Below are positions 40,427 to 45,041 of a stretch of 64,000 nt of DNA, piece by piece (the stretch's first letter is position 1; the number at the start of each line of letters is the position of its first letter). The stretch comes from an uncultured Metabacillus sp. (GTDB lineage: Bacteria; Bacillota; Bacilli; Bacillales; Bacillaceae): contig NZ_CANNCR010000001.1 in the NCBI RefSeq assembly GCF_947503125.1, positions 62,001 to 126,000 of the forward strand. The letters run 5' to 3'. The notes under the pieces were generated by a model that did no database searches, had not been told where the DNA came from, and saw only the letters and a program-made list of their open reading frames with translations. A program made the position numbers and the translations under genes.

Positions 40427-41836
40427 ATGGTAGTTGGAGATTTCCCAATTGAAACAGATACTCTTGTCATCGGAGCAGGCCCAGGCGGATACGTTGCAGC
40501 GATCCGCGCTGCTCAATTAGGACAAAAGGTAACAGTTGTTGAAAAAGCGACATTAGGAGGAGTTTGCTTAAACGTTGGTTGTATTCCTTCTAAAGCATTA
40601 ATTGCTGCTGGTCATCGTTATGAAACTGCTAAACATTCCGAGGATATGGGAATCAAAGCTGATAACGTAACAGTAGATTTTTCTAAGGTTCAAGAATTTA
40701 AGCAAGGTGTTGTGAAAAAGCTGACAGGCGGTGTTGCTGGTTTACTTAAAGGTAATAAAGTTGACGTCGTTTACGGTGAAGCTTACTTTGTTGATAATGA
40801 AACAGTTAAAGTAATGGATGAAACATCTTCGCAAACTTACAAATTTAAAAATGTTATTATCGCAACAGGTTCACGTCCAGTTGAAATCCCTGCGTTTAAA
40901 TATTCAAAACGTGTTATTGACTCAACAGGGGCTTTAAACCTTCCTGAAATTCCTAAGAAACTTGCTGTAATCGGCGGCGGGGTTATCGGAATCGAGCTTG
41001 GAAGTGCCTATGCAAACTTTGGTACCGAAGTTACTTTCATTGAAGCAGCAGATGATATCTTAGTTGGTTTTGAAAAACAAATGAGCGCTCTTGTTAAACG
41101 CGGTCTTAAGAAAAAAGGGGCTGAAATTCACACTAATGCTTCAGCTAAAAGTGTTGAAGAAAGCGAAACTGGCGTAAAAGTAACATTTGAAGTAAAAGGT
41201 GAAGAAAAAACAATTGAAGCTGATTACCTACTAGTATCAGTTGGCCGCCGTCCAAATACTGATGAGCTTGGATTAGAGCAAGTTGGTGTAGAAATGACGG
41301 AAAGAGGCATTATCAAAATTGATAAGCAATGCCGCACAAATATTCCAAACATCTATGCGATTGGAGATATTGTTGAGGGTCCACAATTAGCACATAAAGC
41401 TTCTTACGAAGGGAAAATTGCTGCAGAAGCCATTGCTGGAGAAAAAGCTGAAATTGATTATTTAGGTATTCCAGCTGTTGTATTCTCTGAGCCAGAGCTT
41501 GCATCTGTTGGTTATACAGAAGCAGAAGCAAAAGAGGATGGAATCGAAGTGGTTGCTGCTAAATTCCCGTTTGCTGCAAATGGACGTGCATTATCATTAA
41601 ATGACACGGACGGATTCCTAAAACTTATCACACGCAAAGAAGATGGATTAGTAATTGGCGGACAAATCGCTGGTCCAAGTGCTTCTGACATGATCTCTGA
41701 ATTAAGCTTAGCAATCGAAGCTGGTATGACTGCTGAAGATATTGCGATGACAATTCATGCTCACCCTACATTAGGTGAAATCACAATGGAAGCTGCAGAA
41801 GTAGCGATTGGTTCTCCAATTCATATCGTAAAATAA
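40427..41836 (+). CDS. pdhD: Dihydrolipoamide dehydrogenase E3
   Basis: This 469-residue FAD disulfide reductase regenerates lipoamide with NAD. FAD motif [12 protein letters not shown] (about 14-25), redox pair Cys47 and Cys52 in [16 protein letters not shown] motif [12 protein letters not shown] (about 180-191) and the C-terminal catalytic HAHPTLGE are intact. It starts three bases after pdhC. The subunit is usually shared with other 2-oxoacid dehydrogenases. Confidence 0.96.
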
Positions 41837-42012: not shown

Positions 42013-42393
42013 TTACTTGTTTGTTGATAGTGCCTTGGAAATAGGCTTCATTATTTCTTCCTTTGTTAGAAGGGCTCCTTCTATATGAACGATCACTTTA
42101 TCCTCTTCAATGACAAGGAGAGAAGGATAGATGTCTACCTCAAAGTCATCATAATTACTATTTTCTGAGATGACCTTCATATTTTTAAAATCCTCAGGAA
42201 ACTCTTTCTTAATATCTAATAATGCATCATAGTAGACTGCTTCACGATCAATATTTTCGTCATCCGAGAAAAATAATAGCTGCTTTTCTCTAGTCATTTC
42301 TTCATCGGGTTTAGTTTGTGAATATAAGACACCTTCACATGAAGAAAGGATAAAAACTGGAATGATGAAGGCAATGAGTATTGATCTTGTCAT
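42013..42393 (-). CDS. Small lipoprotein, 126 aa (Slp-like position)
   Basis: This 126-residue predicted lipoprotein has its lipobox cysteine at residue 19 (ILSSC). The mature part is acidic. It has an alternating strand/helix pattern ending VHIEGALLTKEEIMKPISKAL, which recalls small thioredoxin-like or cystatin-like folds, but there is no CxxC. B. subtilis has the peptidoglycan-associated lipoprotein gene slp between pdhD and speA. Homology is suggested by position only. AAGAGGTGGGCAG is the ribosome binding site. Confidence 0.65.
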   Translation of the reverse strand: MTRSILIAFIIPVFILSSCEGVLYSQTKPDEEMTREKQLLFFSDDENIDREAVYYDALLDIKKEFPEDFKNMKVISENSNYDDFEVDIYPSLLVIEEDKVIVHIEGALLTKEEIMKPISKALSTNK

Positions 42394-42501: not shown

Positions 42502-42691
42502 ATAAATATTGAAGTTTCTTCCTCTTGTCATCTATTTGTTACATAATTGAAAAATAAACCGTTTATCCTAGTTTTACATGTAATATACCCACTTTTTCTT
42601 TAGGTCAAATCGCTCTTTCTTTTGTGAAAGATGTAAGTTTCATTTTTGTTTGCATAAACTTTTTATAGGTTTAGGTAAGGGGAGAAGGGGT

Positions 42692-42940
42692 ATGAAGTTA
42701 ACATTTGGGATGGTTTATTGTTGCCAGCTTCTTTTATGGAGTGGTTATAGTTTAGTAGGCTGGCTATCTAAGAAGGATAGTGTGATAGCAAAGGCCTTTT
42801 TGCTCCTTGTATTTTTCTACTTAGCATATTTGATTGCCTATACATGTTTGAAAACTAAGAAAGCAGCATTCCTCATCTCTTTAGCCAGCCTCATCATTTT
42901 TATGCTGGGAAAGCAAGTATATTTATTATTATTTGTTTAA
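42692..42940 (+). CDS. Small membrane protein, 82 aa
   Basis: This 82-residue protein has three membrane segments (about 3-22, 31-50 and 57-80) with short charged loops (SKKDS and KTKKA). GGGGAGAAGGGG directly precedes the ATG at 42692; the longer frame from 42650 has no support. A strong terminator follows, so it is a one-gene unit. I do not recognise the family. Confidence 0.6.
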   Translation: MKLTFGMVYCCQLLLWSGYSLVGWLSKKDSVIAKAFLLLVFFYLAYLIAYTCLKTKKAAFLISLASLIIFMLGKQVYLLLFV

Positions 42941-43107: not shown

Positions 43108-43118
43108 TGTGTTATACA
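43108..43118 (+). promoter_or_regulatory. CcpN-type operator, distal site
   Basis: TGTGTTATACA matches the CcpN operator consensus TRTGHYATAYW at all positions. It lies ten bases upstream of the SR1 -35 element. Confidence 0.65.
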
Positions 43119-43127
43119 ATTTAGCAC

Positions 43128-43156
43128 TTGACGAATCAATTGTGACATATTATTAT
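43128..43156 (+). promoter_or_regulatory. SR1 promoter
   Basis: TTGACG (43128-43133) and TATTAT (43151-43156) are 17 bases apart, giving a predicted start near 43163. Confidence 0.7.
43141..43151 (+). promoter_or_regulatory. CcpN-type operator, promoter site
   Basis: TGTGACATATT matches TRTGHYATAYW at all positions. It occupies the spacer between -35 and -10 of SR1. The two sites are offset by 33 bases, three helical turns, on the same strand. Confidence 0.7.
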
Positions 43157-43238
43157 ATAAATAACAAATCGTTAACCGCTTTCAAAGAATAAGAGACTTT
43201 GAGAGTAATAAATTTCATGATTGAAAAGGGGTATGGAG

Positions 43239-43370
43239 ATGGGAACAATCGTTTGTCAACACTGCAACTCTACAATCGGTCATATTGAAGTAGAAAAAGT
43301 GACAACATTGTATGGAAAATGCAGTCATCATGATTGCAAAAAAGAAGAGAGTAAATTAAAAGTCAAATAA
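43239..43370 (+). CDS. SR1P peptide, GapA-binding
   Basis: This 43-residue peptide is encoded within SR1. It starts MGTIVCQHCNSTIGHIEVEK and continues VTTLYGKC, the conserved SR1P pattern. It keeps a CxxC pair (Cys6, Cys9) and two later cysteines (Cys28, Cys33), suggesting metal binding. The C-terminus is longer and more basic (KKEESKLKVK) than I recall for B. subtilis. In that species SR1P binds glyceraldehyde-3-phosphate dehydrogenase GapA and aids its link with RNase J1. The rnjA gene is in this window. Confidence 0.85.
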   Translation: MGTIVCQHCNSTIGHIEVEKVTTLYGKCSHHDCKKEESKLKVK

Positions 43371-43404
43371 AGGGGTTTATTATATAGGATAAAATAAGGG
43401 GGTA

Positions 43405-43442
43405 AAAAGCATGCGATTTTCAAGTTGCATGCTTTATTTTTT
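43405..43442 (+). terminator. SR1 terminator
   Basis: AAAGCATGC-GA and TTGCATGCTTT pair around a short loop, followed by ATTTTTT. Confidence 0.88.
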
Positions 43443-43501: not shown

Positions 43502-44977
43502 TTATCGTATTGCCCTATGTTCTTTTATGACTCTGACCGTTTGTAAAGAAGGATCTTCAGGTCCTTGTACAGGTAATCCAACTTCAAGGTTTTTCGTAAT
43601 ATAAGTTAAATTATCTTCTGTGATGATTTCGCCTGGAATAAAAATCGGGATTCCTGGAGGATACACCATAATAAATTCAGCTATTATTCTTCCTGCCGAT
43701 TCTTGTAATGGAACAACTTCAGTTTCCGCATAGAATGCATCGCGCGGTGTTAATGCCAATACGGGGATATCAGGTAATAAAATACGGGCTTTTGCTCCTT
43801 GCTCTTTATGTTGTAATTTAAATTGAGCTGAAAGATCCTCAAGGGCAGTGATGAGTGTATCAACATCTTCCTTTGTATCTCCTGGAGTTATGATGCACAA
43901 AATATTATATAAATCAGATAATTCGACTTCAATATTGTATTTTTCACGAAGCCATTTTTCTACATCATATCCTGTTAAGCCTAATTCATAAACAGGGATA
44001 ATTAATTTTGTCGGATCATAATCAAAAGTTGCTTTTGTTCCAAGAATTTCTTTCCCAATACAAGAAATATGATCGATTGCATTAATTTTTTTTCTTGTAT
44101 AATTAGCTAATTCGATCGTTTTTTCAATTAACTCACGTCCTCTTGTAGCAAGCTGCTTTCGGGCTACATCTAAGGATGCTAACAACAAATAAGATGTTGA
44201 TGTAGTTGTCATCATGCTTAAAATAGATTGGACGCGCTGGGGCGAAACTAATCCCTCTCTTACGTTCAGTACAGAGCTTTGCGTCATGGAACCGCCCAGT
44301 TTATGAACACTTGTTGCAGCCATATCAGCTCCAGCCTGCATGGCACTTAAAGGTAAATCCTCATGAAAATGAATATGAACACCATGTGCCTCATCAACTA
44401 ATACAGGAACATGGTAGGAATGAGCAATTTCTACGATTCGTTTTAGATCAGCTGAAATACCGAAGTAAGTAGGGTTTATAACAAGTACCCCTTTTGCATC
44501 AGGGTGTTGTTCAAGCGCTTTTTCTACTGCATCTGTAGTGATTCCATGGGAGATTCCGAGATTCTTGTCAATTTCAGGATGGATAAAAATGGGTGTGGCA
44601 CCTGAAAATACAATAGCAGACATAACAGATTTATGAACATTACGCGGGACAATTATTTTATCTCCAGGTCCACAAACAGCCATCACCATCGTCATGATGG
44701 CACCGCTTGTACCTTGAACAGAAAAGAATGTATAATCTGCCCCAAACGCTTCTGCTGCCAATTCTTGAGCTCTTTTAATCATTCCTTTTGGTGCATGAAG
44801 GTCATCAAGTGGACCAATATTAATTAAGTCTATTGAAAGGGCATTTTCACCGATGAAATTTCGAAATTCAGGAGCAATTCCCATCCCTTTTTTATGACCA
44901 GGAATATGGAATTGAATCGGATTTTTTTTAGCATGTTCGATTAAACCTGTAAACAATGGAGTTTCATTTTGCAACAA
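43502..44977 (-). CDS. speA: Arginine decarboxylase SpeA (Orn/Lys/Arg decarboxylase group I fold)
   Basis: This PLP enzyme makes agmatine from arginine for polyamine synthesis. It has the PLP-binding Lys226 in ATSVHKLGGS, the preceding VDEAHGVH, a FFSVQGTSGAIMTMVMAV cofactor loop and the C-terminal decarboxylase domain (about 375-488). TTG at 44977 is preferred because AAGGTGG lies eight bases upstream. The longer frame from GTG at 44989 would start inside that ribosome binding site. Length is about 491 residues. Decarboxylation of lysine cannot be excluded from sequence, but synteny with B. subtilis speA favours arginine. Confidence 0.88.
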   Translation of the reverse strand: MLQNETPLFTGLIEHAKKNPIQFHIPGHKKGMGIAPEFRNFIGENALSIDLINIGPLDDLHAPKGMIKRAQELAAEAFGADYTFFSVQGTSGAIMTMVMAVCGPGDKIIVPRNVHKSVMSAIVFSGATPIFIHPEIDKNLGISHGITTDAVEKALEQHPDAKGVLVINPTYFGISADLKRIVEIAHSYHVPVLVDEAHGVHIHFHEDLPLSAMQAGADMAATSVHKLGGSMTQSSVLNVREGLVSPQRVQSILSMMTTTSTSYLLLASLDVARKQLATRGRELIEKTIELANYTRKKINAIDHISCIGKEILGTKATFDYDPTKLIIPVYELGLTGYDVEKWLREKYNIEVELSDLYNILCIITPGDTKEDVDTLITALEDLSAQFKLQHKEQGAKARILLPDIPVLALTPRDAFYAETEVVPLQESAGRIIAEFIMVYPPGIPIFIPGEIITEDNLTYITKNLEVGLPVQGPEDPSLQTVRVIKEHRAIR

Positions 44978-45041
44978 AGTTATTCCCACCTTCTTTATTT
45001 ATCAATCGTTTCATGTTTGTCTAAATACCGTCTTTATAGAT

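Follow-up and report, generated by a model that had tools for sequence, protein, structure and literature searches.

The window, by which we mean the whole 64,000-nucleotide stretch of DNA analysed here, contains a complete sr1/SR1P locus at positions 43108-43442, and the genome to which it belongs carries a second SR1P gene, SR1P2, in a carbohydrate catabolic operon. Based on the evidence as a whole, we propose, with a probability of roughly 85%, that the window harbours a CcpN-controlled sr1 orthologue whose SR1P acts on GapA, and that SR1P2 is an additional, operonic copy. This explanation is supported by the anatomy of the locus, its family membership and gene order, a ccpN-like gene, pairs of operators, purifying selection and a lysine of GapA. 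Binding of CcpN, the response to sugar and the binding of GapA and RNase J1 would follow by analogy with Bacillus subtilis. SR1 is a textbook example of a dual-function RNA. Judged on its sequence, the window locus is a normal sr1 orthologue, which adds one more gene to a well-studied family. The first-pass annotation of this DNA was correct in what it found, and what it found is ordinary. The apparent novelty resides in the second, operonic SR1P, not in the window locus.

Anatomy and family membership of the sr1 locus

All the elements described in the first-pass annotation are present where it had placed them. The locus sits between pdhD and speA, with two small ORFs separating pdhD from sr1, and its features are as follows.

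40427-41836, + strand: pdhD, flanking gene
42013-42393, - strand: small ORF of 126 aa, lipobox-like, presumably slp; between pdhD and sr1
42650-42940, + strand: small ORF of 96 aa; between pdhD and sr1
43108-43118, + strand: distal CcpN-type operator TGTGTTATACA, exact match to TRTGHYATAYW; upstream of the -35 hexamer
43128-43133, + strand: -35 hexamer TTGACG, read from the sequence; promoter score reached by 2% of 200 shuffles (p=0.02; 150 bases upstream of SR1P)
43141-43151, + strand: proximal CcpN-type operator TGTGACATATT, exact match to TRTGHYATAYW; in the promoter spacer and the first base of the -10 hexamer
43151-43156, + strand: -10 hexamer TATTAT; 17-base spacer to the -35 hexamer
43163-43442, + strand: predicted SR1 RNA, ~278 nt; both ends predicted, the start ~7 bases after the -10 hexamer
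43177-43184, + strand: leader element CGCTTTCA in the untranslated leader; resembles half a cre site
43224-43231, + strand: Shine-Dalgarno sequence AAAAGGGG, 7 bases before the ATG; conserved in the genus alignment
43239-43370, + strand: SR1P ORF, 43 codons (43239-43367) plus stop; PF13790
~43404-43442, + strand: intrinsic terminator AAAGCATGC...GCATGCTTT followed by a U-run, read from the sequence; stem also in the predicted fold
43502-44989, - strand: speA, flanking gene

Two full matches to TRTGHYATAYW were confirmed, with starts 33 bases apart, together with a TTGACG-17-TATTAT promoter that holds the proximal site in its spacer, the 43-codon ORF, the T-tailed terminator and a pdhD/speA neighbourhood as in B. 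subtilis. The covariance model RF02376 (SR1) matches positions 43198-43381 with 55.7 bits against a gathering score of 45, and is the sole Rfam family match within the 64-kb window. The PF13790 profile matches the ORF with 66.8 bits (E 1.9e-18; cut-off 26), and NCBIfam yielded no match to the SR1P ORF at E<=0.001. Among the canonical copies of the genus, speA adjoins the gene in 21 out of 21, and pdhD is within reach in seven of the 3-kb loci. An identical genomic location is described for the 23 SR1 homologues of a 2012 survey (PMC8152036).

How does the locus compare with its counterpart in B. subtilis? The latter is described as specifying an RNA of 205 nt whose repression is due mainly to CcpN and to a slight extent to CcpA, and which pairs with ahrC and kinA and encodes SR1P (PMC8501984). 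The window locus shares with this system (RF02376, PF13790) the place between pdhD and speA, the two CcpN-type sites, the SR1P ORF and the terminator, and the genome has a ccpN-like gene, ahrC, pckA and two GAPDH genes, gapA and gapB. It differs in the length of the predicted RNA (~278 nt versus 205 nt), as the first-pass annotation had anticipated, and in a 3' RNA part that is variable within the genus. Its SR1P has 43 aa instead of 39, the core GHIEVEKV and a C-x4-C near the end.

CcpN-type operators and the CcpN regulon

Single matches to TRTGHYATAYW occur at chance level in the 5.44-Mb genome (80+74, or 154, against 79+89, or 168, for a reversed-pattern control). Exact pairs with 8-36 bases between the sites are found at three places, sr1, gapB and ppsR-ppdK, versus one for the reversed-pattern control, and pairs spaced by 22 bases with no more than two mismatches at six places versus seven. 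Because these pair counts do not clearly exceed the control, it is the location of the operator pairs, and not their number, that carries weight. The gapB pair precedes a gene for a 340-aa GAPDH, and ~95 bases ahead of the pckA match lies a pair with two mismatches. The pairs at sr1 and gapB, together with this imperfect one at pckA, are a likeness to the CcpN regulon, whereas the pair before ppsR-ppdK is an addition in the window's genome. This last pair (G000:C24:56798-56841, L041) lies before a second PF03618 gene, ppsR, which is followed by ppdK, and its sites read in the orientation opposite to that of the gene. It suggests that pyruvate phosphate dikinase may be under CcpN control in this genome; for Lactobacillales, ppdK has been predicted to belong to the targets of CcpN (PMC3616900).

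Conservation across loci provides stronger evidence for CcpN-type pairs than the genome counts. The named loci that we compared are the best 80 of 209 confirmed, of which 72 are canonical (pdhD or speA found) and seven operonic. Every one of the 72 canonical loci among these best 80 of 209 displays a pair with at most one mismatch per site and an offset of 31-34 bases, exact in 44 of the 72, and such a pair arose in 0.07% of 1440 shuffles. Among the 21 canonical copies of the genus, an exact pair is found in 13 and a pair with at most one mismatch per site in 17; the other four lack a pair even so. Could the sites and the ORF have come together by chance, with no functional locus behind them? 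The chance frequency of the single 11-mers would fit this notion, but the Rfam and Pfam matches, the gene order, the pairs at 72 of 72 named loci (best 80 of 209) and dN values below dS render it exceedingly improbable.

The first-pass annotation had named an absence of ccpN from the genome as evidence against its reading. The genome encodes a ccpN-like protein of 211 aa with an HTH_11 domain and two CBS stretches, and the gene adjoins a PF03618 gene. In B. subtilis, CcpN is described as binding upstream of and overlapping psr1 (PMC7430163). By analogy, CcpN would occupy both operators of the window locus under glycolytic conditions, one upstream of the promoter and the other inside it, and would block transcription; under gluconeogenic conditions an RNA of ~278 nt would be produced alongside gapB, pckA and ppsR-ppdK.

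A further element, CGYTTTCA, is present in the leader of 21 out of 21 canonical genus copies, of 50 of the 72 named canonical copies (best 80 of 209) and of none of the seven operonic ones, with a frequency of 0.14% in shuffles. Matched by hand, CGCTTTCA of the window shows two mismatches to WTGNAANCGNWNNCW, which we take to be the cre consensus for CcpA. This leader element is a candidate for one half of a cre site or for an element of the RNA. The CcpA site described in B. subtilis is located ~260 bp upstream of sr1 (PMC7430163).

Base-pairing of the SR1 RNA

When 48 targets were ranked by duplex energy and accessibility, ahrC came 47th; in the positive control of the same method, a genome (G047) from a genus (g22) in which other copies have a B. 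subtilis-like SR1P, ahrC came 29th of 61. Because the positive control failed, the duplex ranking says nothing about ahrC pairing, and it was dropped as a test. A possible, albeit doubtful, alternative is that the locus is effectively protein-only, so that SR1P would be produced from a CcpN-controlled mRNA and the RNA would no longer pair with ahrC. In the genus alignment the leader, the Shine-Dalgarno sequence and SR1P are conserved, whereas the sequence of the 3' part of the SR1 RNA and of the terminator is not, a pattern that is compatible with such a loss, as is a predicted ahrC duplex of no great strength. However, a negative outcome from a test whose control failed means little, and RF02376, which models sequence as well as structure, still matches from end to end. 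We favour the interpretation of the locus as an sr1 orthologue in the sense of the B. subtilis gene.

SR1P of the genus and its partner GapA

The four cysteines and the longer tail of SR1P had been regarded in the first-pass annotation as departures that might alter GapA binding or the RNA target. Neither turns out to be exceptional. With C6 and C9 present without exception and C28 in at least 90% of the 57 SR1P sequences aligned, four cysteines are near the family norm, and the tail is of variable length within the order. It is in the core, and not in the number of cysteines, that the sequence of the genus SR1P departs from the family. Of the 21 canonical copies in the genus, 17 combine I/V at position 16 with V/G at position 18, two show L/G and two F/N, whereas F at 16 and D at 18 are present in 73 out of 73 named non-operonic copies, a set that was fetched with an operonic query and is hence biased. 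The window SR1P is under purifying selection: over the first 31 codons, the dN/dS values against three of four relatives are 0.03/0.25, 0.03/0.25 and 0.04/0.52, and the fourth relative is identical.

A structure model of SR1P based on 57 sequences (mean pLDDT 81.5) consists of three strands and a short helix. Its resemblance to the Zn(Cys)4 parts of Fur, PerR and Zur is too weak to serve as evidence (Foldseek E 0.56 at best; highest Z 2.3, with an rmsd of 3.1 across 36 residues). The corresponding model of SR1P2, based on 11 sequences, has a mean pLDDT of 63.4. Translation of the SR1 RNA would yield SR1P as a small four-cysteine protein, which, to judge from its cysteines, probably binds zinc; it would then associate with the C-terminal region of GapA and favour the GapA-RNase J1 complex. 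One GAPDH copy of the genome adjoins a phosphoglycerate kinase-like ORF, and we take this copy to be gapA. The protein ends in ASKGL; the lysine in this tail is residue 332 if Met is not counted, and it aligns with the end of 1gd1. A decisive role in SR1P binding is described for GapA Lys 332 (PMC8152036), and the lysine named in print for this contact is thus kept in the window's genome. GapA offers a partner on which the core change peculiar to this genus can be put to the test.

SR1P2, a second copy in a catabolic operon

The second PF13790 copy of this genome lies outside the window, where it was not visible to the first-pass annotation, at C76:9015-9116 on the - strand (60.7 bits; cut-off 26; gene at L095:4986-5117). 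SR1P2 is a 43-aa cistron with the Shine-Dalgarno sequence GGAGG, separated by 92 bases from the SDR gene that precedes it and by 28 bases from rpiB downstream, and the order of the operon is split transketolase (two genes), SDR, SR1P2, rpiB and GntR. There is no CcpN-type site with at most one mismatch within 220 bases of SR1P2, and no RF02376 match at C76 at E<=0.001 under stricter filters. The operonic copies of relatives score 48.2 bits with this model in G008, which passes the threshold of 45, 38.2 bits in G005 and G019, and 30.8 bits in G003, over part of the model. We also observed a hairpin, AACAGGCA...TGCCTGTT, at L095:5174-5203 (- strand) between SDR and SR1P2, possibly an attenuator or a partial terminator.

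How might the operonic copies be controlled? A GntR-type motif, AGTAKACAAGT, is found with at most one mismatch within 90 bases upstream of 9 of 14 operonic copies, usually 38-51 bases before the start, and in none of the five canonical copies scored alongside. The p-values of this motif are partly circular, because it was found in the same sequences that were scored; a partial check is that it turns up again upstream of further units in these operons. A promoter-like pair with p<=0.04 precedes 6 of the 14 operonic copies, and in three of these it reads TTGACA-17 followed by TATACT or TAAAAT. The combination of an own promoter and a GntR-type site in several relatives suggests that SR1P2 is probably made there upon substrate induction, independently of the SR1 RNA. 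SR1P2 of the window's genome has a promoter p-value of 1.0 and a GntR-type site with two mismatches (p 0.038), so that here the cistron may be read through from tkt-SDR.

Over 28 residues, SR1P2 of the window's genome has a likeness of 81% to the named canonical copies (n=73, the biased set), of 65% to 12 canonical copies of the genus and of 64% to other operonic copies. A grouping of the operonic copies as one sequence clade is unsupported by these values, the highest of which comes from that biased set. One might envisage that the SR1P of this genus has changed its partner and that SR1P2, where present, keeps the ancestral role on GapA, a scenario that we judge unlikely. It would accommodate the core change seen in most canonical copies of the genus (17 of 21) as well as the greater likeness of SR1P2 to the named canonical copies than to those of the genus. 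However, the altered core is also encountered in 10 of 13 single-copy genus genomes, where no second copy could take over, and the GapA lysine is kept. Moreover, the use of an operonic query for the 73 named copies favours their likeness to SR1P2, which is itself only 64% like other operonic copies. An SR1P that acts on GapA remains our preferred interpretation.

Distribution of SR1P and of the operonic copies

Of 397 genomes sampled from the order, 325 encode SR1P, and they represent 119 of 136 genera. At least two matches are found in 23 of these genomes, with seven in one, and 8 of 21 genomes of the genus have more than one match. The non-canonical SR1P copies that we examined number 37 at 33 loci. 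A setting of tkt, SDR, rpiB, pfkA, GntR and transporter genes surrounds 18 of the 33 loci (20 copies in 15 genomes from three GTDB families, f1, f41 and f44); two of the 18 are weak assignments, since the neighbours in G011 are limited to MFS and GntR, and the copy in G014 scores 23.8 bits, under the Pfam cut-off. In 10 genomes, a total of 13 loci have SR1P and rpiB on one strand with no more than 300 bases between their starts. At the remaining 15 of the 33 loci SR1P is located elsewhere, outside the catabolic setting. dN is below dS in all eight compared pairs of operonic copies.

The seven operonic loci among the best 80 of 209 named loci belong to Metabacillus halosaccharovorans, Bacillus sp. 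J37, M. bambusae, M. niabensis, Gracilibacillus sp. YIM 98692, Domibacillus sp. PGB-M46 and D. indicus, and five of them are already counted in the larger genome set. CcpN-type sites are absent within 220 bases of all seven of these copies; outside the named set, a few operonic copies have a lone one-mismatch CcpN-type site at -173 or -192.

Other arrangements were also observed. The genome with seven SR1P matches, G350 (L131, L132, L133, L134), has SR1P in tandem pairs at two places, the canonical site and the operon. Extra copies away from pdhD and speA are accompanied by CcpN-type sites at L098 (G013:C23), with two sites, and at L135 (G410), a tandem pair with two sites and one; whole sr1 units therefore also duplicate. 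A divergent SR1P-like family of the MQILICKECEETIEYAEYKKVVKIYSTC type occurs in genus g28 (L106, L155, L156, L158, L161, L162 and L163), in varied gene settings and without CcpN sites at these seven loci. Divergent SR1P-like proteins of the EGVKTWYG type are encoded between pfkA and rpiB (L147:4992-5108 and L154:5001-5108) and also match Zn_Ribbon_TF weakly.

SR1P as a mobile gene was considered and, on searches of phage and plasmid records, rejected. The window SR1P as query found no SR1P in 50,697 phage records, and SR1P2 as query found it in one of 72,556 plasmid records, at NZ_CP083716.1:349792-349875. This Bacillus velezensis record of 806,695 bases, in which the copy is annotated 'GapA-binding peptide SR1P', may be a mislabelled piece of chromosome.

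Discussion

SR1 homologues are described in 139 species, only in Bacillus and Geobacillus (PMC8501984), and reviews, in the parts available to us, treat SR1P solely as the product of SR1. In the available portions of the literature on SR1P paralogs, the GapA-binding peptide and rpi operons we found no report of an operonic SR1P. By its description, SR7P of B. subtilis, which binds enolase, is a comparable case of a small protein from a dual-function RNA that acts on a moonlighting glycolytic enzyme (PMC8152036).

What might a second SR1P be used for? SR1P2 would represent a second use of the protein, as a cistron of a carbohydrate catabolic operon free of CcpN sites. In the reading that we put forward, to which we assign about even odds, SR1P2 is a protein-only gene of catabolic operons in at least three GTDB families, in which control by CcpN is lacking and, in several relatives, an own promoter and a GntR-type site have taken over. 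As read from their sequences, these operons comprise a split transketolase, SDR, rpiB and GntR, and some of them also pfkA, rpe and TRAP or MFS transporters. Growth on the substrate would induce SR1P2, which would bind GapA and divert it to RNase J1, limit the use of glyceraldehyde-3-phosphate, or both. Glyceraldehyde-3-phosphate is the sugar phosphate made or used by transketolase. GapA binding, a diversion towards RNA decay and a restraint on glycolysis are functions that we infer for SR1P2. If this reading is true, the peptide function of a dual-function RNA has been naturally separated from its base-pairing function and rewired to a catabolic regulator. SR1P2 would then show that the peptide is of value in its own right, would point to the metabolic situation in which SR1P is needed, and would offer a natural system for studying the function of the peptide without the small RNA.
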